From Actinomycetota bacterium (GTDB lineage Bacteria; Actinomycetota; Coriobacteriia; Anaerosomatales; Anaerosomataceae), in NCBI GenBank assembly GCA_004348925.1, contig RCMX01000007.1, forward strand, positions 144,126 to 208,125: a stretch of 64,000 nucleotides of DNA. The letters run 5' to 3'. Below the pieces are notes generated by a model. It was not told where the DNA came from. It did not search any database and worked only from the letters and a program-made list of their open reading frames with translations. This document shows positions 13,476 to 64,000 of this stretch, piece after piece. The position numbers and the translations under genes are program-made. How positions within the stretch are numbered: position 1 is the stretch's first letter; each line of letters starts with the position of its first letter.

Positions 13476-13510
13476 GCAAACGGGGGAGGAGCGCCTGCCG
13501 TGCGTCGCGT

Positions 13511-42902: not shown

Positions 42903-42999
42903 GGAGGCGAATGGGTCCTGGTGGGCTCCGCGGTCTTCAAAACCGTCGTGGGGCGTGAAGAGCGTCCTGGGTGTGTTCGATTCGCACACGCCTCCGCCA
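42903..42999 (+). tRNA. selC: tRNA-Sec (anticodon TCA)
   Basis: This 97-base tRNA has an acceptor GGAGGCG pairing with CGCCTCC (an eighth pair would be A-A), anticodon loop CTTCAAA with anticodon TCA, a long variable arm (about 25 bases), T-arm GTGTGTTCGATTCGCAC and encoded GCCA end. The length and long arm are those of bacterial tRNA-Sec. It completes the selenocysteine set with selABD but is not in that operon. It is divergent from the cytochrome promoter. Confidence 0.93.
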
Positions 43000-53567: not shown

Positions 53568-54455
53568 GTGAACCTTTCCCAGCTTCGAACATTCGTCGCA
53601 GTCGTCGAGCACGCGTCGTTCTCGGCAGCAGCCCGCGCGCTCGGACTCTCGCAGCCCGCCGTCACGATGCAGGTGCAGGCGCTCGAGTCCGACCTCGGCG
53701 TGACGCTCCTCGATCGCCGCTATCGCAAAGTCGAAGTGACCGAGGCGGGACGCGCGCTCTTGCCGCACGCCCGCAAACTGATGCTGGGGGTGGAAGAAGC
53801 GCGGCTCGACCTCGAAAACCTCTCGGGCACCGTATCGGGGCGCCTTACGGTCGCCGCCAGCACGACGCCCGGGCAGTACGTGCTGCCGAGGCTCCTCGGC
53901 GGATTCCTCAAGCAGTATCCGGACGTCGGTGTCACGCTCCGTGTCTTCGACACCAGCGACGTCGTCGAACACGTCGAGCGCGGGGAGGCGCATCTGGGCA
54001 TGACGGGGGCCGAGATCCCCGGCGCGCGCGCGGCCTTCGAGAAGCTTGGCAGCGACGACCTTGTGCTGGTTTGTCCGCCGGGGCATGAGCTCGCGTCGCG
54101 CAAGAAGATCCTCATGCCGGAGCTGGTCGACGAACCGTTCATCGTGCGCGAAGACGGCTCGGGCACACGGATGGTGGCCGAGGATGTCATGCGCCGCGCG
54201 GGCGTCGAACCGGCAGAGTTGCGCGTCGTGATGGAGCTCGGCACCAACGAAGCGGTGCTTTCCGCCATCGAGGGCGGGATGGGTATAGGGATCGTGAGCA
54301 TGTGGGTCGCCGAGAAGGCGATCAAGCTCGGCACGGTGGCCGTTGTCCCGGTGCCCGAGTTCCCGCTCGTTCGGCCGCTCTTCCTGGTCACGCCGCGGAC
54401 CACGCCCACGCGCGCGGCGGGGGCGCTTGCGGACTACCTGCGCAGTGCGCTGTGA
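53568..54455 (+). CDS. LysR-family transcriptional regulator
   Basis: Start GTG 53568 (AGGGGGGCAG upstream), 295 residues. The N-terminal LysR helix-turn-helix (LRTFVAVVEHASFSAAARAL, LSQPAVTMQVQALE) is followed by a CysB/CbbR-type effector domain (VAASTTPGQYVLPRLLGGFL, FIVREDGSGTR, GGMGIGIVS). The TTPGQYVLP segment resembles LysR regulators annotated in selenium-metabolism contexts, but that is only a resemblance. It is divergent from the fur operon and upstream of the first CWB2 gene on the same strand (64-base gap). Confidence 0.9.
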   Translation: MNLSQLRTFVAVVEHASFSAAARALGLSQPAVTMQVQALESDLGVTLLDRRYRKVEVTEAGRALLPHARKLMLGVEEARLDLENLSGTVSGRLTVAASTTPGQYVLPRLLGGFLKQYPDVGVTLRVFDTSDVVEHVERGEAHLGMTGAEIPGARAAFEKLGSDDLVLVCPPGHELASRKKILMPELVDEPFIVREDGSGTRMVAEDVMRRAGVEPAELRVVMELGTNEAVLSAIEGGMGIGIVSMWVAEKAIKLGTVAVVPVPEFPLVRPLFLVTPRTTPTRAAGALADYLRSAL

Positions 54456-54519
54456 GGTGAAAGGCCCGGGTGCAGCACACTTCGGGATGTCGGTCTTCTC
54501 GAGACGAATGGAGCGTGGC

Positions 54520-56571
54520 ATGAGGGAGCATCGATCGACTCGCTACCTGGTCGCGGCAGTTGTGGTCGCTTTGGTGACGTCGCTGCTGGGCGTTCCGACA
54601 GCGTTCGCAAAGTCGACCTTCGCCGGTGGACCGACCGACACTGTTCTGTACGTGCCGAACGACCACACGCCGATCGGATTCCGGTTCGAGGCCACGGCGG
54701 GGCTTGCGCCGAGCACGGACTACTACGCCAAAGTCAGGTTCACGGTTGGCACCTCGCCGGACCCCACTACGAACCGCGGCCTCACCTGGAACGGTGCCTC
54801 GGGAGCCTGGGTGCCCGACCTCGGCGGTGTCAACTGGACCGACTTCCCGGTCGTCACGAGCAACCCGGACGGCACCATCACCGAGCAGTGGATCTTCGCG
54901 AAGTTCGGCGATGAGCTCTCCTCGGGCACGTATCACGTGATGATCTCGCTCTTCAGCAACGGAACCACGTACAACTCATCGAACGTCCCGGCCGTCACCG
55001 TCATGGACATGGCCACCCAGGGCGGCTGGATCCACAACGGGAGCACGCTCGCGGCAGGATCGGCAGGCAGACGCGTCGAGTGCTCCTCGGTGGCCTCGAC
55101 TGCAACCGTCTATGCGCTCGCGAAGTCCGAGGCCGACCTGGTAGACAGCGACTCGGACGGCGTGGTCGACAACGAGGACTACGGACCGGCTGGTGTCTCG
55201 GCCGCCGATTTCCGGCTTGGCGTGCCGGTGAGCCTGCCGTTCAACACGTACATCAACCGGACGTCGCAGATCACGTCGTCCTTCACGCTGGCTGTGGCGG
55301 ACACCGACATAGCGCACAGCGGTACGGATCAGGTGGCACCGAGCGCCCCGGGCTCATTCGTCGTCGATCCGGGTGTGCTGGCGAACGAACTGTCCTGGAC
55401 GGCTGCCGGCGACGCTGGCGGATCCGGGCTCACGGGCTACCGCATCTTCCGCAGGGTGGCGTCCGGCCAGGAGAAGTTCTCGAATCCGTGGAGGCTTATC
55501 GCGCAGCCGGATTCGGGCGTGACGACGTACATCGACGAAGGGCTTGAAGCGGGTGTCGAGTACTTCTACCAGATCAGGGCGGTCGACGCCGCCACGAACG
55601 TCGGCCCTCGCGCAGAAGACAGCGGGACACCTCTGCAGTTCAAAGCGGAGTTGGTGCGCACCTTCGGCGCCGACCGGTACGGCACCGCTATCGCGATCTC
55701 GCAGAGCACGTTCCCGCCAGGCTCGACCTCTACGGCCATTCTCGCGACAGGCATGAACTTCCCGGATGCGCTCGCGGCATCCGGTCTCGCCGGTGCGGTA
55801 GGCTCGCCTGTGCTGCTCGTCGGCGCGTCGGTGACCGCTTCGCTTACCGCCGAACTCGATCGGCTCGGTGTGACCGATATCGTCATCGTCGGAGGTGAGA
55901 GTGCCGTTCCGGCAAGCGTGGCGACTGCACTCGCTGCGAACTACACCGTGGACCGGATCGCCGGCGCCGATAGGTATAGCACCGCGGCGCATGCTGCATC
56001 GCGCATCAAGGAACTGACGGGTGACGCCAGCTTCGCGTTCTTCGCACGCGGCGACAGCTTCGCTGACGCGCTTGCGGTTTCGCCGATCGCCTACAGTGGA
56101 GCGATTCCGGTGCTGCTCGTCCGGCCCAGCAGCGTGCCAACGATCACAAGTGGCGCCATCGGCGTCCTCGGCGTCACGGATGGCGTCGTCGTTGGCAGCG
56201 AGGCAGCCATCTCAAGTGGCGTGTATGCCACGCTCGATACAGTGCTGTCCGGCAGCATCCCGCGCATAGGCGGAACGAATCGCTACGAGACCGCGAAGCT
56301 GATCGCGGACTATGCGGTCGACGAGGGCTGGGCGACTTACAGCTACATCGGCCTTGCGACCGGTCTCAACTACCCCGACGCGCTCGGTGGCTCTGGCGCC
56401 ACCGCATGGAGTGGTGGCGTACTGCTGCTCACCGATCCCAAGACGCTTTCGGCACCGGTCGTCTCGGCGATCACCGACAACAAGGGCGAGATCGCGACCG
56501 TTGAGATCTTCGGGAGCTCCAATGCCGTCAGCAAGCGCGTCGGCGATGCTGTGGCGGCGCTCCTGGAGTAG
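54520..56571 (+). CDS. Secreted CWB2 surface protein, paralogue 1
   Basis: Start ATG 54520, 683 residues. A signal peptide (VVVALVTSLLGVPTAFA) leads to a 250-residue N-terminal domain with VPNDHTPIGFRFEA, YYAKVRFT, W-F-AKFGDE and a Ca-site-like DSDSDGVVDNEDYGP. An FN3-like domain follows (about 280-370), ending EYFYQIRAVDAATNVGPR. Three CWB2 repeats (about 378-683; DRYGTA, FPDALAA, NRYETA, YPDALGG) attach it to wall polymers. It has the same length and order as the 57719 gene, so this is a duplicated pair. The ligand of the N-terminal domain is unknown. Confidence 0.9.
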   Translation: MREHRSTRYLVAAVVVALVTSLLGVPTAFAKSTFAGGPTDTVLYVPNDHTPIGFRFEATAGLAPSTDYYAKVRFTVGTSPDPTTNRGLTWNGASGAWVPDLGGVNWTDFPVVTSNPDGTITEQWIFAKFGDELSSGTYHVMISLFSNGTTYNSSNVPAVTVMDMATQGGWIHNGSTLAAGSAGRRVECSSVASTATVYALAKSEADLVDSDSDGVVDNEDYGPAGVSAADFRLGVPVSLPFNTYINRTSQITSSFTLAVADTDIAHSGTDQVAPSAPGSFVVDPGVLANELSWTAAGDAGGSGLTGYRIFRRVASGQEKFSNPWRLIAQPDSGVTTYIDEGLEAGVEYFYQIRAVDAATNVGPRAEDSGTPLQFKAELVRTFGADRYGTAIAISQSTFPPGSTSTAILATGMNFPDALAASGLAGAVGSPVLLVGASVTASLTAELDRLGVTDIVIVGGESAVPASVATALAANYTVDRIAGADRYSTAAHAASRIKELTGDASFAFFARGDSFADALAVSPIAYSGAIPVLLVRPSSVPTITSGAIGVLGVTDGVVVGSEAAISSGVYATLDTVLSGSIPRIGGTNRYETAKLIADYAVDEGWATYSYIGLATGLNYPDALGGSGATAWSGGVLLLTDPKTLSAPVVSAITDNKGEIATVEIFGSSNAVSKRVGDAVAALLE

Positions 56572-56680: not shown

Positions 56681-57679
56681 GTGAGACCTGTGGCCGGCAC
56701 CATCAGGATGAACCGCGATGACCAACTCGAAGCAGTTGGCGACGCGACGCGTCGTGCGCTCCTGTGCAGGCTCATGGCTGCGCCGGCCACCCTCTCGCAA
56801 CTGGGAACGATGTTCGGGAAGCACCCTGCGTGGATCCGGCATCATGTCATGCGCCTGGTAGAGGTCGGGCTGGTCGAACTCGGCGAGGTCCGTCAGGTGC
56901 GCAACTACACCGAGAAGTACTATCGCGCCACGGCCTCCGCGTTCGAAGTGCACCTGCTGTTGGCGCCTGACGACGGAGCAGACCGGTCGGTCACCGTCGT
57001 GGGGAGCAACGACAGTGCGCTTGAGGCCTTCGCGGGCAGCCTCTCGGGGATTACCGTCGTTCCGGTGTCGATCGGGAGCCTTGACGGGCTGATCGCGCTT
57101 CGGCAGGGGCTCGCCGACATCGCAGCGTGTCACCTCTTCGATTCGCGCGAGTCCGAGTACAACATCCCGTATGTCCGTCATCTCTTCGCTGATCGCGAGG
57201 TCGTCGTCATAACACTCGTCCATCGCGAGCAGGGTGTCATGGTTCCGTCCGGCAACCCTCTCGGCATCGCGAGAATCGCAGACATCGTTGAACGCGGAGC
57301 GCGACTCGCGAACCGGAACCCCGGCTCAGGTACCAGGGTGTGGCTTGACGGTGAGTTTCGGGCGATCGGCGCAGACCGCGAGGTGATTCCCGGCTACGAT
57401 TCCGCGTTCGCGACGCACGCGGCGGTCGCACAGGAAGTCGCCGCAGGCAGAGCGGATGTCGCGCTCGGCATCAAGACGGCCGCCGAAGCAGCGGGCCTGG
57501 AATTCGTGCCGTTGACCCGGGAGCGGTTCGACCTCGTCGTCCCCGCGGATCGGATCGCGCAGGCGAGCATCGAGGCATTCATTGATGAGCTGGAGACCAA
57601 ACGCGCCCGGCAGATGATGGGGGCTTTGAGCGGCTACGACGTGTCCCACACCGGCGATGAGGTGTCGGTAGCAGGTTAA
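56681..57679 (+). CDS. ArsR-like HTH fused to PBP-like (PF12727-type) ligand domain regulator
   Basis: This protein of up to 332 residues (internal GTG 56690 or ATG 56708 are alternative starts) has an N-terminal winged helix (VGDATRRALLCRLMAAPATL, IRHHVMRLVEVGLV). A substrate-binding-protein-like domain from about 95 (VTVVGSNDSALEAFAG, LRQGLADIAACHLFD, VMVPSGNPLGI, LANRNPGSGTRVWLD, ALGIKTAAEAAGL) resembles the domain that binds molybdate or tungstate in ModE-like and MoeA-linked regulators. It sits between two CWB2 paralogues and probably controls the second and the genes after it. Confidence 0.82.
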   Translation: MRPVAGTIRMNRDDQLEAVGDATRRALLCRLMAAPATLSQLGTMFGKHPAWIRHHVMRLVEVGLVELGEVRQVRNYTEKYYRATASAFEVHLLLAPDDGADRSVTVVGSNDSALEAFAGSLSGITVVPVSIGSLDGLIALRQGLADIAACHLFDSRESEYNIPYVRHLFADREVVVITLVHREQGVMVPSGNPLGIARIADIVERGARLANRNPGSGTRVWLDGEFRAIGADREVIPGYDSAFATHAAVAQEVAAGRADVALGIKTAAEAAGLEFVPLTRERFDLVVPADRIAQASIEAFIDELETKRARQMMGALSGYDVSHTGDEVSVAG

Positions 57680-57718: not shown

Positions 57719-59770
57719 ATGAAGAAGGGGCATTTGAGACAGCGGGTCGCCGTACTGGTGGTGCTCGCGATGGTGGCATCGATGGGGTGGACGATCCCGT
57801 CGGCGTCCGGAGCCGCAGCCACGTTCACAGGCGGTGCGTATGACATGCCGCTCTATGTGGCCAACGACCACACGCCTGTCGCGTTGCGCTTCAACGTCAC
57901 AGGCGGGCTCGAAGCGAACACGCAGTACTACGCGAAGATCCGATTCACCGCTGACGTGACGCCGAACTCGACCACCAACCGTGGCTGGACGTACAACGCG
58001 GCCACGAACACCTGGATTCAGGAGCGTGAGGATTGGACGCTCTTCCCGGTAGTCACGACTGACGCGAGCGGGTTGCTGGACACCTGGATCTACGCGAAGT
58101 TCGGTGACGAAGATCAGTCGGGTAGCTATTACGCCATGGTCTCGCTCTCCAAGACAGGCGCGGCGTCAACGTACAACGCGTCCGTGCTACCGCTCGTGAC
58201 CGTCATGGACACGAAGACCGCAGGCGCATGGATTCACAACGGCACGGCCACGGGCGCCGCTACCGCCAAGCGGGCCGAGGTCACGTCGGTCGCGTCCACC
58301 AGCACGGTGTACGCGCTCTCGAAGACCGAAGCCGACGCGGTCGACAGCGACTCGAACGGCGTCGTCGATGACGAGGACTACGGCCCTGTCGGCAAGAACG
58401 GCGACTACAGGTTCGCCGTCCCGACCGCCACGGCGTTCAGCGTATACCTCAACCGCAACTACTCGACCAGCACGATCCTGAACAAGACCGTGGCAACCGC
58501 CGACACCGATATCGCGCTCATGGCGGCCGACACGGAGGCGCCAAGCGCCCCCTCGAACGTCACGGCGACACCGGGCTCGGACAGCGTCACCGTTGACTGG
58601 GACGCTGCGACCGACCCCGATTCCGGCGTGGCCGGCTACAGAGTCTATCGCTGGCAGGCGTCCCCCTCGGCTTCGTATACGAATCCGAAGAGTCTCGTGG
58701 CGACTACCGCCGCCGGTGTGACCCAGTACCTCGATGAGGGGCTGGTAAAGGGCGAGGAGTACCGCTACGAGGTCCGTGCGGTCGACGTTGCCACGAACGT
58801 CGGTCCGCGTTCCGCCGAGGTCACGGCAGTGCCGCTCGGCCTCATGGACACCACGCGTACCTCCGGCGCCGACCGCTACGCGACGGCGATCGCGCTGTCG
58901 TCATCGGCGTTTGCCGACAGCACGGTCACGACAGCGGTCGTGGCAACCGGCCGGGATTTCCCGGACGCGCTCTCGGCGTCGAGCCTCGCCGGTGTGTACG
59001 GAAGCCCGATTCTGCTTGTCGGCTCGTCGGTGACCGCTTCGCTCACGGCCGAACTCGATCGTCTGGGTGCCCAGCATGTCGTTCTCATCGGCGGCACCAG
59101 TGCCGTTCCGACTACCGTTGAGCTAGCGCTCTCCGCGCACTACAACGTGTCGCGAATCCAGGGTTCTGACCGCTATGCTACGTCGGTCGCGGTCGCCAGG
59201 GAGGTCGCCAGCCTGACCGGTGGCGTCACCGAGGCGTTCTTCGCCCGCGGCGACGGATTCGCCGATGCACTGGCGGTATCGCCGTTTGCGTACGGCCAGG
59301 CTATGCCGGTCCTGCTGGTGCGTCCCACGAGCATACCGACCACGGTCAGCGCCGCCGTCGGCTCGCTCGGCTTGACCGACGGCATCATCGCCGGCGGAGA
59401 GCCCGCGGTATCCGCAACCGTCAAGACCGACCTGGACGGTCTGCTCTCGGGCACGGTCACGAGAGTCTGGGGCACTGATCGGTACCTGACCGCTCGTGCC
59501 GTCGCCGACTACGGCGTCGCGCAGGGCTGGGGCGACTACAGCTACGTCGGCATCGCGACGGGACTTACGTTCCCCGACGCCCTCGGCGGGGGACCTGTCG
59601 CCGCGCAGAATCATGGCGTGTTGTTGCTGACCAACCCGCAGTCGCTCTCCGCGCCGGTGTCCTCGGCCATCACGGCGAACAAGGGCACCATCGACCTCGT
59701 CGATATCTACGGCAGCGAAAAGGCCGTAACCGCGGGGGTCCGCACCGCTGTCGAAGCTCTGCTTCAGTAG
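57719..59770 (+). CDS. Secreted CWB2 surface protein, paralogue 2
   Basis: This 683-residue protein has the same length and plan as the 54520 gene: signal peptide (VAVLVVLAMVASMGWTIPSASG), an N-terminal domain with VANDHTPVALRFNV, YYAKIRFT, YAKFGDEDQSGSYY and DSDSNGVVDDEDYGP, FN3-like (about 275-370) and three CWB2 repeats (DRYATA, FPDAL, TDRYLTA). GGGAGG precedes the ATG. It is 39 bases after the regulator and 12 bases before the next gene, so probably heads a long operon. It likely captures a substrate at the wall for the membrane proteins downstream (inference). Confidence 0.9.
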   Translation: MKKGHLRQRVAVLVVLAMVASMGWTIPSASGAAATFTGGAYDMPLYVANDHTPVALRFNVTGGLEANTQYYAKIRFTADVTPNSTTNRGWTYNAATNTWIQEREDWTLFPVVTTDASGLLDTWIYAKFGDEDQSGSYYAMVSLSKTGAASTYNASVLPLVTVMDTKTAGAWIHNGTATGAATAKRAEVTSVASTSTVYALSKTEADAVDSDSNGVVDDEDYGPVGKNGDYRFAVPTATAFSVYLNRNYSTSTILNKTVATADTDIALMAADTEAPSAPSNVTATPGSDSVTVDWDAATDPDSGVAGYRVYRWQASPSASYTNPKSLVATTAAGVTQYLDEGLVKGEEYRYEVRAVDVATNVGPRSAEVTAVPLGLMDTTRTSGADRYATAIALSSSAFADSTVTTAVVATGRDFPDALSASSLAGVYGSPILLVGSSVTASLTAELDRLGAQHVVLIGGTSAVPTTVELALSAHYNVSRIQGSDRYATSVAVAREVASLTGGVTEAFFARGDGFADALAVSPFAYGQAMPVLLVRPTSIPTTVSAAVGSLGLTDGIIAGGEPAVSATVKTDLDGLLSGTVTRVWGTDRYLTARAVADYGVAQGWGDYSYVGIATGLTFPDALGGGPVAAQNHGVLLLTNPQSLSAPVSSAITANKGTIDLVDIYGSEKAVTAGVRTAVEALLQ

Positions 59771-59782
59771 GAGATCTGAGAC

Positions 59783-60232
59783 GTGAGTGGAGGCCGCAGC
59801 CGTGCGCTGATCGTGCTGGGAGCAGTGTTGGTGCTCCTTGTCGTCGGCGCATGGGCTGCGGCCTCCCTCCTCGCTCCCAAGGATCGGTATGAGGTCCGGG
59901 TGTCCGATGGGACGCGCGTGCTGGCGTCGTACACCGTTGGAGAGCTCCAGTCGCTGGGCGCAGTGAAGATCGTCGCTCTCGGCAAGACGGAGCAGGGACC
60001 GAGCCTCATACGGGTGCTTGAGGACGCAGGCGTCAACGACTTCTCACGTGTCGTCATCCGCGGCGCCGGCGTTCGGGACGCCGGATCGATCGTGCTCACC
60101 CGCGATCAGGTGGACGGAGATGTCATCTTCGATATCGCCAATCGCGGCACGGTCAAGATCGTCAGCCCCGAGATGGCCTGGGACGAACGGGTCCGCGATG
60201 TGACCGAGATCATCGTGGAAGGGGCCGAGTGA
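59783..60232 (+). CDS. Membrane-anchored protein with molybdopterin-oxidoreductase-like domain
   Basis: This 149-residue protein has one N-terminal helix (ALIVLGAVLVLLVVGAWAAASLL), then an extracytoplasmic domain of about 115 residues. YEVRVSDGTRVLASYTVGEL, GKTEQGPSLIRVLEDAGV, VVIRGAG and DIANRGTVKIVSP resemble the small sulfite-oxidase-like (PF00174-type) fold, but no Moco-ligating Cys is present. It may bind a ligand rather than catalyse. The stop overlaps the ECF S-component ATG (TGATG). Confidence 0.6.
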   Translation: MSGGRSRALIVLGAVLVLLVVGAWAAASLLAPKDRYEVRVSDGTRVLASYTVGELQSLGAVKIVALGKTEQGPSLIRVLEDAGVNDFSRVVIRGAGVRDAGSIVLTRDQVDGDVIFDIANRGTVKIVSPEMAWDERVRDVTEIIVEGAE

Positions 60233-60816
60233 TGGTCGGCCGTCCACGCAAGCCGCACTTCACGGTCAGGGAAATCGTGCTTCTGGCACTCCTCGCGGCA
60301 CTCATCGTCGTGACCAAGATGGTGCTCAGGATGCCGATACGGGTTCCGGGGCATTCAGGCGTCCTGTGGATGGCCGCACTGGTCATCGGTCGGGGTCTTG
60401 TGAAGCGACCATGGGCCGGCACTATTCTCGGCTTCGTCTCGGGCGTGCTCGCCGTGCTCTTCGTTGGCGGCGCCGAGGGCCCGCTGTTGTGGGTGAAGTA
60501 CCTGGCCCCAGGGATGGTGCTCGACCTCATCGATGTCCTTGTGCCCATCGGGTTCGAGGATCGCTTCCTTGGAACGCTCGCCGGCGCGATCGCGAACTGC
60601 GCGAAGCTTCTGAGCGCGACCGTCATCGCGCTCTTGATGGGACTGCCCGCCGGATTCCTTGTGGTCGGCCTCGGTGCATCTGCGGTCTCGCACGCGTTCT
60701 TCGGCGGGCTCGGCGGGTGGCTCGGCTCATATCTGCTGCGGAGGTTGGGGCCGATCCTCAATGGCCCTGCCGCAGTCTCGCTATCGACCGACGCCGAGAC
60801 ACGGGTGGGTGCATGA
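60232..60816 (+). CDS. ECF transporter S component
   Basis: This 194-residue membrane protein has about five helices, starting FTVREIVLLALLAALIVVTK as many ECF S components do, with a Gly/Ala-rich core (GTILGFVSGVLAVLF, VKYLAPGMVLDLIDVL). The vitamin or metal bound cannot be read from sequence. It may use the CbiQ/CbiO pair encoded at 50.5-52.2 kb or a shared group II module. It is translationally coupled to both neighbours (TGATG and ATGA). Confidence 0.8.
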   Translation: MVGRPRKPHFTVREIVLLALLAALIVVTKMVLRMPIRVPGHSGVLWMAALVIGRGLVKRPWAGTILGFVSGVLAVLFVGGAEGPLLWVKYLAPGMVLDLIDVLVPIGFEDRFLGTLAGAIANCAKLLSATVIALLMGLPAGFLVVGLGASAVSHAFFGGLGGWLGSYLLRRLGPILNGPAAVSLSTDAETRVGA

Positions 60817-62600
60817 TGCGCGAGCACCGACATACCGTTGTCGCACTTCTTCTGGCGCTGGTGCTGGCCCAGCCATCCGTGGCGACCGCGAGGACCACGT
60901 ACCGCGAGGGGAGTGCGTCGCGCCCCTTCAGCGTTGGAGCGCTCACGGGTGGGCGTGTCGTCGAAACCGCCGGCGATCCGAGGATCGTGCCCAGGACTGC
61001 CATCCTGTGGGAGTTCAAGACCCCGAGCCTCGATCCGCGGTGCATCCAGCTCCTGACGAACGGGAACGTGCTCATCGCGAGCCGCGACGGGAACCGGGTC
61101 CTGGAGGTCGACATCTCGGGCCGCATCGTGTGGACATACACGTCGGGTGAGTACCAGGCGGCGTTCGGGCTTCCGGCGACGGAACCGTTCCTGCCGTTCG
61201 CGGTGCACCGCTTCCCGGCACCCGACGGCTCACAGCACACGCTTGTCACCCTTAGAAAGGGAGCTCCGGTATTCGAGCTCGATGAGAACAAGAACGTCGT
61301 CTGGAGCTATGGCACGGGCGTCTCGGGAACCGGTCCCGGCCAGCTCTTCGACGCATTCTCTGCAACGCGGCTCGCTGGCGGGAACACGCTCATCGCCGAC
61401 AACCAGGGATGCCGGGTCATCGAGGTCACGCCCGGCGGCGACATCGCATGGCAGTACGGCGTCGCCGGCGAACCGGCCTCGGCTCACGCCTACGCGCTCG
61501 GATACCTCGATTGGCCGAGAACCGCCCAGCGCATCGACCCGCGTCCAGGAGACGGTCTGTTCACCACGCTCATCGCCGATGAGCCCGGGCAACGCGTGAT
61601 CGAGGTGGATCAGTCGGGTGCCGTGATCTGGCAGTACGGGCAGAACGGCGTGCCGGGCACAGGTCCGGGCCAGCTCTTCGATCCTTCGCAGGCGGTCGAG
61701 CTTCCGGATGGCACGATCATGATCCTCGACAATCCCAACAAGGTCGGTCGGGTGCTTCACGTGGCGCGCGACCACAGCATCATCAGCGTGTACCCCGACC
61801 CTGCTGACACGCCCACGAACGGTGCGATGGGGGAAACCCGTTCCGTCGTCGTCTCACCCCCGGGTGCGTCGCGTTTTCCTGGCAGCGTGCTTATGGCGGA
61901 CGAGTCGAACGATCGCGTGATCCGCGTCGGCTATGAGTCATCGGTCAAGTTGACCTCGCTTGACCTCGATTGCGGGCTGCCCGGCGTACGGAAGGACTTC
62001 CTTGCGATCTCGTGGGGGGGCACGCTCCCGAAGGGCACGTCGCTCATGCTCTACTACGCTGTCGACGACGGTGCATGGCAGACCGCAGGCTCCGCGAAGA
62101 GGATCGAGTTGCCGGCGACCGCAGTCGGCAGACGCATCAAGTACCGCGCGGTCATCACGACCGTGGATAGCTCGCAGCAGGCGTCGATCGAGGCCGTGAG
62201 CATCGAGGCGGCGCCTGCCGCCGATCACGAACGTTCCTCGGCCACCACGGGCGGTACCTCGTCCACTGGCGGCACACCAACTTCTGCAGCCAACGGGAAC
62301 ACCCCGACCGCTCCGATACCCTCCGGAGCCAAAGGCAGCGCTGGCGGCGCTCTCATAAGCGACGCCGGGGTCGAAGGTGTTCTCGATGGTCCTCTCGAGA
62401 CGGCGGCGGGCCACGTGCTTGCCACAAGCGCCACGTCGATACCGGGGCTGCCGGGTCCCGGTGGGGCGCCGGGCGACCTTGGTGGACCCGCCGCCGTTCT
62501 CGGGCTGACGTATCTTGCCGGGTTCGCGTGGTATCCAGCGCGTGCCGGGCTTGCACGACTTGCGGCCGACAGGACTATGCGCTCACCAGGGAGGACGTGA
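60813..62600 (+). CDS. Secreted NHL/arylsulfotransferase-like beta-propeller with C-terminal membrane helix
   Basis: This 595-residue protein has a signal peptide (VVALLLALVLAQPSVATA). A six-bladed-type propeller spans about 40-385 with recurring NTLIADNQGCRVIEV and GQLFDPSQAVELPDGTIMIL blades, each followed by IAWQYG or IWQYG. Next come a beta domain (about 385-480), a Ser/Thr/Pro/Gly linker (about 485-545) and a terminal hydrophobic segment (AVLGLTYLAGFAWY). It therefore sits outside, anchored in the membrane. Propellers of this type bind ligands or proteins; the enzymatic residues of arylsulfotransferases were not identified. The ATG overlaps the S-component stop. Confidence 0.75.
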   Translation: MMREHRHTVVALLLALVLAQPSVATARTTYREGSASRPFSVGALTGGRVVETAGDPRIVPRTAILWEFKTPSLDPRCIQLLTNGNVLIASRDGNRVLEVDISGRIVWTYTSGEYQAAFGLPATEPFLPFAVHRFPAPDGSQHTLVTLRKGAPVFELDENKNVVWSYGTGVSGTGPGQLFDAFSATRLAGGNTLIADNQGCRVIEVTPGGDIAWQYGVAGEPASAHAYALGYLDWPRTAQRIDPRPGDGLFTTLIADEPGQRVIEVDQSGAVIWQYGQNGVPGTGPGQLFDPSQAVELPDGTIMILDNPNKVGRVLHVARDHSIISVYPDPADTPTNGAMGETRSVVVSPPGASRFPGSVLMADESNDRVIRVGYESSVKLTSLDLDCGLPGVRKDFLAISWGGTLPKGTSLMLYYAVDDGAWQTAGSAKRIELPATAVGRRIKYRAVITTVDSSQQASIEAVSIEAAPAADHERSSATTGGTSSTGGTPTSAANGNTPTAPIPSGAKGSAGGALISDAGVEGVLDGPLETAAGHVLATSATSIPGLPGPGGAPGDLGGPAAVLGLTYLAGFAWYPARAGLARLAADRTMRSPGRT

Positions 62601-62607
62601 AGCCACC

Positions 62608-63252
62608 GTGCTTGACGGGATTCGGTATCTGCTGACGACTCCGCAGGCGATCATCTATGAGATCGCCACTGCGCTACTGTATCCGGTGCTCTTCATCGAG
62701 GTGATCGCGCTTGTCTGGGCAGTCTTCGAGCTTGGGTCGTTCACCTGGGAAGCTCTGCAGCGTCGCGGGAAACGCTCGCTGCGAGCGATGGATGACGTCA
62801 CGGGTCGGGCAGCGTCGTTGCTCGCCGACGGCAAGGCGGATGACGCGCTGGCCGAGATGCGCCGGCTCCCCGGCCGCGGCTGGGTAGGCACCTTCTTCGC
62901 GGAGGCCGAGGGCGCAGACTGGTACGAGCGCACGCGACTGCTCAAGCGGCTCACAGACTTGGAATCGCGCATCAGCAAGACGCTGGAGCGAACCCGGGTC
63001 CTGGTGCGGCTCGGGCCGATGCTCGGCCTCATGGGCACGCTCATCCCGATCAGCCCCGCGCTCATCGGCCTGGCCAAAGGCGATGTCCAGACGCTCTCCG
63101 ACAACCTGGTCGTCGCGTTCTCCACGACGGTCATCGGTCTGCTTATCGGTGGGCTCGGGTATGTCGTCTCGACCGTGCGCGACCGCTGGTACGGACTGGA
63201 TGTCAGCGACATCGAGTACGCGCTCGATCGGGTCGAGGAGCATCTGCGATGA
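62608..63252 (+). CDS. MotA/TolQ/ExbB-family proton-channel protein
   Basis: Start GTG 62608, 214 residues. Three hydrophobic segments and the ExbB core (VLVRLGPMLGLMGTLIPISP, then NLVVAFSTTVIGLLIGGLGYVVS) are clear. ExbB/TolQ proteins use proton flow to drive a partner with one membrane helix. No TonB or outer membrane is expected in a Gram-positive cell, so the energy would drive something at the membrane or wall. It overlaps the DUF2149 gene by four bases (ATGA). Confidence 0.88.
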   Translation: MLDGIRYLLTTPQAIIYEIATALLYPVLFIEVIALVWAVFELGSFTWEALQRRGKRSLRAMDDVTGRAASLLADGKADDALAEMRRLPGRGWVGTFFAEAEGADWYERTRLLKRLTDLESRISKTLERTRVLVRLGPMLGLMGTLIPISPALIGLAKGDVQTLSDNLVVAFSTTVIGLLIGGLGYVVSTVRDRWYGLDVSDIEYALDRVEEHLR

Positions 63253-63611
63253 TCGGGCGGGCGAGACGGATCGGCGACGCGAATTCGTTCATGGAGCGCC
63301 ATCGAACGCGCATTCCTGATCGCAACGGCGATCCGATGGAGGCTGTCGCCAATCTGTTCGATGTGGCGATGCTGATCGGTATCGGTTTCCTGGTGGTAGC
63401 GCTGTCGTCGTTCGGACTCAAGGAACTGCTCACGAGCGAGGATCTAACGATCGTGAAGTCACCCGGAACGCCGCAGATGGAGATCATCACGCGCACGGGC
63501 GACACGGTCGAGCGCTTCACGACCACGCCCGAGGAGGCGTCGGGCCAGGGGCTGCCGATCGGTACGGTGTATCGGCTTGAGAATGGACAGATCGTGTGGG
63601 TTCCCCGATAA
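63249..63611 (+). CDS. DUF2149 protein with ExbD-like topology
   Basis: This 120-residue protein has a cytoplasmic N-terminus of about 35 residues, one membrane helix (VAMLIGIGFLVVALSSFGL) and a small outside domain (VKSPGTPQMEIITRTGDTVERF, GTVYRLENGQIVWVPR). DUF2149 genes accompany MotA/ExbB and CobN-like genes in methanogens and some bacteria, as I recall. Placement directly after an ExbB gene and its ExbD/TolR-like layout suggest it is the moving partner of the proton channel (inference). Confidence 0.8.
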   Translation: MIGRARRIGDANSFMERHRTRIPDRNGDPMEAVANLFDVAMLIGIGFLVVALSSFGLKELLTSEDLTIVKSPGTPQMEIITRTGDTVERFTTTPEEASGQGLPIGTVYRLENGQIVWVPR

Positions 63612-63621
63612 GGAGTGTTCG

Positions 63622-64000
63622 ATGACTCGCATCTACGTGACCTTCGACGACACGGACACCCTCGATTGCGGGCGCGGCACCGGCAAGCTTGCGCGATGGT
63701 TCGAGGATGAGCTGCCCGAGGGCTGTGTGTTGTGGGGCGTAGTGCGCCAGCAGCTGCTCGTCCATCCGGACGTGCCGTATACCTCGCACAACAGCTCCGC
63801 CTGTGTGGTGCTCGATGCACCGGGCGCGGACGTGGTGCCGACGATCATCGAACGGGCGATCGCTCACCTGCAGCGTCACGCGGTCGATGGTAGCGATCCC
63901 GGGCTGTGTGTCGCCACCGACGAATCCCCGCGTCTCGATGTCCTCCTGGCGTTTGCCGAGCGGGCAACGCGCGAGGTCTTGACGCAGGCAGACGCGATAG
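63622..64000 (+). CDS. FDDTD-motif (TiaS N-terminal-like) protein, truncated by window end
   Basis: The first 126 residues are visible: TRIYVTFDDTDTLDCGRGTGKLARWFEDELP, then VVRQQLLVHPDVPYTSHNSSACVVL. The FDDTD motif and following Gly/Thr resemble the start of archaeal tRNA(Ile2) agmatidine synthase (TiaS), but bacterial relatives are of unknown function and need not act on tRNA. It follows DUF2149 by 10 bases with AAGGAG ahead and continues beyond base 64000. Confidence 0.65.
   Translation, partial: MTRIYVTFDDTDTLDCGRGTGKLARWFEDELPEGCVLWGVVRQQLLVHPDVPYTSHNSSACVVLDAPGADVVPTIIERAIAHLQRHAVDGSDPGLCVATDESPRLDVLLAFAERATREVLTQADAI

Follow-up and report, generated by a model that had tools for sequence, protein, structure and literature searches.

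We analysed a stretch of 64,000 nucleotides (the window) on contig RCMX01000007.1 of an Actinomycetota genome (assembly GCA_004348925.1, positions 144,126–208,125 of the forward strand), at the end of which lies a gene cassette that seems to encode a cell-surface import system not described before. Seven genes run head to tail on the forward strand, all in frame and with start codons, from a gene for a wall-bound CWB2 protein at 57719 to that of an FDDTD protein, which crosses the window end and stops at 64374, 374 bases beyond it (position 13500 of locus L002). The successive intergenic gaps are 12, −4, −4, 7, −4 and 10 bases, in agreement with an earlier note on this DNA that described a run with gaps or overlaps of at most 12 bases and proposed a surface uptake and energy system with a metal theme. 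The results below support that proposal, uptake being the direction that we infer. A regulator gene (56690–57679) lies 39 bases upstream of the CWB2 gene on the same strand and travels with the cassette; we therefore count it as part of the unit, and the operon-like run probably starts with this gene.

The regulator combines an ArsR-type helix-turn-helix domain (HTH_5, 3e-4) with a PBP_like domain (PF12727, 6.5e-63) and also matches SBP_bac_11, of the ModA type (3e-7), and the PBP part of a molybdopterin biosynthesis protein in NCBIfam (2e-67), consistent with its earlier description as an oxyanion-type regulator. The CWB2 protein (57719–59770; Pfam 9.4e-50 and 8.4e-10) comprises a signal peptide with a hydrophobic stretch at residues 10–28, an N-terminal domain, an fn3 domain and three CW_binding_2 repeats. 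Directly upstream of the regulator, positions 53568–56571 encode a regulator of the LysR type and one more CWB2 protein, whose N-terminal domain resembles that of the cassette protein; this pair is kept in the same genus (L032).

The gene order regulator–CWB2–sulfite-oxidase (SUOX)-fold protein–energy-coupling factor (ECF) S component–propeller–ExbB–DUF2149–FDDTD recurs in 14 species, a count that takes in variants and some contigs ending inside the block. Most of these species belong to one Coriobacteriia-type order, and outside the genus the proteins share about 25–60% identity. In 10 of the 11 species whose contig reaches that far, the regulator immediately precedes the cassette. Across the 69 genomes of the order, the S component was found in 13, DUF2149 in 18 and FDDTD in 19, not counting one further match that is weak and split, confirming that these families occur together: the S component is accompanied by FDDTD in 13/13 genomes (Fisher 7e-10) and by DUF2149 in 12/13 (Fisher 2e-8), with kinship ignored in both tests.

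Linked genes continue past base 64000. Where the earlier note had suggested looking for a CobN- or chelatase-like gene, we instead found tungstate/molybdate transport and molybdenum cofactor (Moco) genes: a Mop protein (TIGR00638, 4e-23), a Moco/tungsten cofactor (Tuco) riboswitch (RF01055, 65 bits), TupA-like, TupB and TupC genes and, named from sequence, a MobA–FdhD fusion, MoeA, MobB, MoaA, MoaC, MOSC and MogA. The sole TupA-like gene of the genome lies about 620 bases past FDDTD. Tungsten (W) or molybdenum (Mo) transport, storage or enzyme genes occur within about 8 kb in 8 of the 14 cassette species, namely TupABC (L002, L032, L031 and L041), TupBC (L046), ModABC (L035, with a ModA above its cut-off), a molybdenum-storage homologue (L040) and an aldehyde ferredoxin oxidoreductase (AOR; L094). 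The cassette is thus real, conserved and W/Mo-linked, and is assembled from known kinds of parts. AOR tungsten enzymes are encoded in 58/69 genomes of the order, so that co-occurrence of the cassette with AOR has no power. In the window and the 21 loci scanned, Rfam matched only tRNAs and two Moco riboswitches, with no cobalamin riboswitch. One of the tRNA genes in the window (42903–42995; RF01852, 67.8 bits) is for selenocysteine and would fit a seleno-formate-dehydrogenase metabolism. The nearby cbiMQO genes, which had been drawn into the metal theme, are divergently oriented with a Fur-type gene of their own, and outside the genus we did not see them next to the cassette within the reach of the contigs.

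The product of 59783–60232, previously labelled 'Moco-like', carries an N-terminal transmembrane (TM) helix (residues 8–26), and its AlphaFold model (pLDDT 89.6) was matched by Foldseek best to PruR (7kom, 8e-5) and then to sulfite oxidases. Structural comparison with VIA gave Z 13.4 to 7kom (107 aa, 2.4 Å) and 14.2 to SoxC (2xts). As modelled, the protein is a membrane-anchored SUOX-fold domain closest in size to PruR, a pterin-binding protein with a Trp in its ligand site (PMC13259868). Although the fold is shared with PruR and sulfite oxidase, the cassette protein is membrane-anchored, no DcpA-type partner was seen, and it appears to have no conserved Trp or Cys at the ligand position, which is Trp in PruR and Cys in SUOX: the GK.E.GP segment of alignment A2, a sequence alignment with no residue-level superposition, contains no conserved Trp or Cys.

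For the product of 60229–60816, the sequence match to ECF-ribofla_trS (PF07155, 1.5e-4) falls under the cut-off, which is made good by its AlphaFold model (pLDDT 91.1, pTM 0.85), an ECF S subunit with the six-helix S-component fold, as the earlier note had named it. In VIA comparisons, this model matched YkoE (Z 15.9 over 181 aa, root-mean-square deviation 7.5), ThiT (13.6), the S component of 4hzu (13.3), PanT (13.2) and FolT (12.7), placing it at Z 12–16 to vitamin-type S subunits versus about 10 to the metal-type CbiM/NikM. Residues G40 and H41 are invariant across 20 aligned sequences, with K89 and D98 nearly so, and ligand binding and import are its predicted functions. The genome encodes four EcfT/CbiQ genes, one of them with EcfA1A2 beside truA, a group II EcfA1A2T set.

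Homologous S components (26–30% identity, with the Gly-His pair invariant and the Lys and Asp nearly so) are found in Deltaproteobacteria within TonB receptor–EcfA(A′)–EcfT–EcfS–FDDTD clusters (L065, L072, L078, L079, L089, L091 and L116), and an EcfS–FDDTD pair stands at a contig end in L076. The L072 cluster carries a PBP_like regulator, and in L078 receptor, ECF genes, FDDTD, TupABC and a molybdenum storage protein (MoSto) homologue form one run. The cassette thus resembles group II ECF transporters in its S-component fold, in relatives placed in EcfA–EcfT–EcfS operons and in a shared EcfA1A2T elsewhere in the genome, but its operon adds wall-bound, SUOX-fold, propeller and ExbB/DUF2149 parts. 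In the literature, of which part was covered, we found no W-linked ECF transporter and no paper that joins W to both TonB and ECF.

The ExbB/TolQ/MotA-type subunit (62608–63252) matches PF01618 (MotA_ExbB) at 4.2e-9 and 36.7 bits against a cut-off of 22.9, and DUF2149 (63249–63611) matches PF09919 at 2.8e-25; for these two and for CWB2, Pfam agrees with the names first given. ExbB residues T144 and T174, which we take to be equivalent to T148 and T181 of the E. coli protein, are invariant in 18 sequences, and D38 of DUF2149, at the start of its only TM helix (39–57), is invariant in 17. By these signatures DUF2149 would indeed be an ExbD-like partner, as had been proposed, and the pair, having kept the channel threonines and the TM aspartate, should conduct protons. 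A profile search of PDB sequences with DUF2149 listed no ExbD and nothing else useful. The PF01618 match, the conserved threonines and the TM aspartate of the partner are shared with ExbB/ExbD, TolQ/TolR and MotA/MotB, whereas DUF2149 is shorter, there is no TonB, Tol or flagellar partner, and the gene presumably coupled to the motor encodes an exported NHL-type beta-propeller (60813–62600). The propeller protein matches the TRIM2 NHL profile (9e-24) and, under the cut-off, Arylsulfotran_2 (3e-4), and has a Ser/Gly-rich linker and a C-terminal hydrophobic stretch. Propeller, ExbB and DUF2149 are present without the rest of the cassette in L033 and form a second set in L031 (6614–9421), on the far side of a riboswitch-led TupABC, and we therefore regard them as a sub-module.

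The ExbB–DUF2149 pair itself is already known as HmuU and HmuV of the Bacteroidota hmuYRSTUV system (PMC10434189, PMC12583661), and the literature on DUF2149/COG4744 links this family to Hmu and TolQ. HmuYRSTUV, however, pairs the motor with the CobN-like HmuS, whereas the cassette belongs to a monoderm host, lacks an outer-membrane receptor, has the NHL propeller as partner and stands in a W/Mo context. We looked for CobN and DUF2162 as cassette partners: PF02514, the CobN-like HmuS family, has no match anywhere in the genome, and the HmuT-type DUF2162 is found in 0/69 genomes of the order. With these two defining parts absent, the cassette is not an Hmu system. A different ExbB–DUF2149 type occurs beside FmdE-domain genes in two other loci (L047:4000–19500 and L054:9560–13609), the first of which also encodes a siderophore/cobalamin-type ABC transporter and large cell-surface proteins.

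The FDDTD protein (63622–64000, continuing to 64374; 250 aa) has a profile match to the TCKD (kinase) domain of TiaS (3au7, 2.1e-7 over 167 residues). D9, D10, T11 and D12 and the G19-T20-G21 motif are preserved in about 75 of 78 homologues, and T20 aligns with T18, the catalytic threonine of TiaS. The tRNA-binding C-terminal part of TiaS was not found, the profile match ending at residue 167 of 250. FDDTD thus shares the DDTD motif and the GTG threonine with TiaS, but stands alone at 250 aa compared to 400–440 aa and is linked to W/Mo genes. An FDDTD relative also gives a weak match to methanogenesis marker protein 11 (TIGR03280). A second, diverged subfamily ('IDDTD') of the same order (L151:1489–2241, L153:1004–1744 and L154:1501–2241) matches TiaS at 2e-9 and marker 11 at 5e-8, and apparently replaces the first type in genomes G322, G338 and G341, all of which have the S component.

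We collected 80 FDDTD relatives from GTDB genomes, mostly of Deltaproteobacteria, plus Synergistota and Actinomycetota. All 80 are bacterial by record title, which for this protein speaks against the archaeal origin suggested earlier, although the scan seeds could miss distant archaeal forms. Within 5 kb, and with closely related genomes included, at least one Mo/W gene accompanies FDDTD in 60/80 loci, far above the expectation for scattered single-copy genes: a MoSto-beta homologue (PDB match to MoSto 5e-69) adjoins it in 50, a Tup/Mod-type permease is near it in 26, a PBP_like regulator in 12 and a molybdopterin oxidoreductase in 10. A conserved 70-residue protein, with no Pfam or NCBIfam match, is encoded nearby in 49/80 loci; the trio of FDDTD, this protein and the MoSto-beta homologue recurs in Deltaproteobacteria and Synergistota (L078:9998–16201, about 50 loci), often adjoining formate dehydrogenase, and the 70-residue protein is a candidate for a partner in molybdenum storage that has not been described so far. 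MoSto (MosAB), so frequent beside FDDTD, is yet missing from the genome of the window and present in 9/69 genomes of the order, which rules it out as an obligate partner of the cassette. In a FastTree phylogeny, the cassette FDDTD proteins form a clade whose sister is the ECF-linked L076 protein with its neighbour L075 (support 0.95), and ECF-linked members are scattered over several branches among MoSto-linked ones. Our partial coverage of the literature returned no role for the FDDTD family, and none for FDDTD or marker 11 with MoSto.

Taken as a whole, we tentatively favour, at a little short of an even chance, the following working of the cassette as a W/Mo-linked uptake system. The regulator, given its PBP_like domain and its context, would sense W/Mo status, probably as molybdate or tungstate, and turn the cassette on. 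The CWB2 protein and the anchored PruR/SUOX-fold protein would capture a scarce W- or Mo-related compound, such as a chelate or a pterin-type molecule, outside the membrane, and the S component would import it, served by the housekeeping EcfA1–A2–T encoded elsewhere in the genome. The constant adjacency of ExbB, DUF2149 and the propeller suggests coupling between the proton channel and the propeller, which is anchored; the channel would drive the outside parts by proton motive force, much as ExbB/ExbD works TonB. FDDTD may be a cytosolic kinase of the TCKD type that spends ATP either on the cargo itself or on passing the metal to a store or to cofactor synthesis. As cargo we put a complexed W/Mo species first, with modest confidence. 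By analogy with the deltaproteobacterial clusters, the wall-bound and motor parts may replace the TonB receptor of a diderm version. A more specific form appears possible, on the doubtful side: a dedicated importer of metallophore- or pterin-bound W/Mo with a TiaS-type kinase inside and two envelope versions, a diderm one of TonB receptor and ECF and a monoderm one of wall-bound capture, ExbB/DUF2149/propeller and ECF S component.

Several observations weigh against the uptake system so described. The TupA-like protein scores under its NCBIfam cut-off (216 versus 400 bits). Six of the 14 cassette loci, several of them cut by contig ends, have no other Mo/W gene nearby, and neither do 6 of the 8 ECF-linked deltaproteobacterial loci within 5 kb. 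The anchored domain appears to lack a conserved residue matching the pterin-binding Trp of PruR. MoaA is encoded by 13/13 S-component genomes, which are therefore not cofactor auxotrophs, and a Moco auxotrophy is rejected on this ground. Finally, two metagenome-assembled genomes, labelled Thermoleophilia (L094) and Actinomycetes (L128), have the cassette without ExbB and DUF2149; the motor is not essential everywhere, and we accordingly regard the capture proteins, S component, propeller and FDDTD as the core, to which the motor is an optional addition.

Salvage of a finished pterin cofactor (Moco or its tungsten form, Wco) or of another pterin, bound by the PruR-like domain, imported by the S component and phosphorylated by FDDTD, would account for the SUOX fold, the presence of a Mop protein and a Moco riboswitch close by and the closeness of the S component to vitamin-type subunits. 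We consider it unlikely in view of the retained MoaA, the company that FDDTD mostly keeps, a metal store and not pterin genes, and the apparently missing Trp. That the cassette is a vitamin importer placed in a W/Mo neighbourhood by chance would be consistent with the six loci without such genes and with L044, where an OsmF-type glycine betaine transporter comes after the cassette; it is quite unlikely given that neighbours of different kinds (TupABC, ModABC, MoSto and AOR) recur, that the PBP_like regulator is so regularly upstream, and that FDDTD has the same association in other phyla.

Proteins of the CWB2 and NHL kinds often serve in adhesion. Together with the role of PruR as a periplasmic sensor partner in Agrobacterium (PMC13259868) and the motor-less L094 and L128, this would suit a surface sensor or adhesion complex in which the regulator, PruR-like domain and propeller report outside conditions and the ECF-like protein is a scaffold. 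Such a complex without import is improbable, since the homologous S component occurs in complete EcfA–EcfT–EcfS operons with TonB receptors and the genome itself has a shared EcfA1A2T. An Hmu-kind system, in which ExbB–DUF2149 powers the capture of heme, cobamide or F430-like compounds or the removal of their metal, is highly improbable: the HmuU/HmuV identity of the pair and a CobN–DUF2162–ExbB–DUF2149 set at L049, in a different genome of this phylum, speak for it, but the propeller takes the place of CobN and DUF2162 here, and their absence, the W/Mo neighbours and the lack of a cobalamin riboswitch in the window and scanned loci disfavour the metal-tetrapyrrole cargo of the earlier note.

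The established view is that W and Mo enter cells through the oxyanion ABC transporters Tup, Wtp and Mod. If the W/Mo-linked uptake system that we favour is correct, a receptor-plus-ECF route and a MoSto-tied TiaS-type kinase would be additions to the W/Mo metabolism of syntrophs and relatives of sulfate reducers, organisms that depend on AORs and on formate dehydrogenases with W or Mo. Where there is no outer membrane, moreover, an uptake motor of the ExbB/ExbD kind would need a new type of coupling partner, for which the propeller is a concrete candidate.

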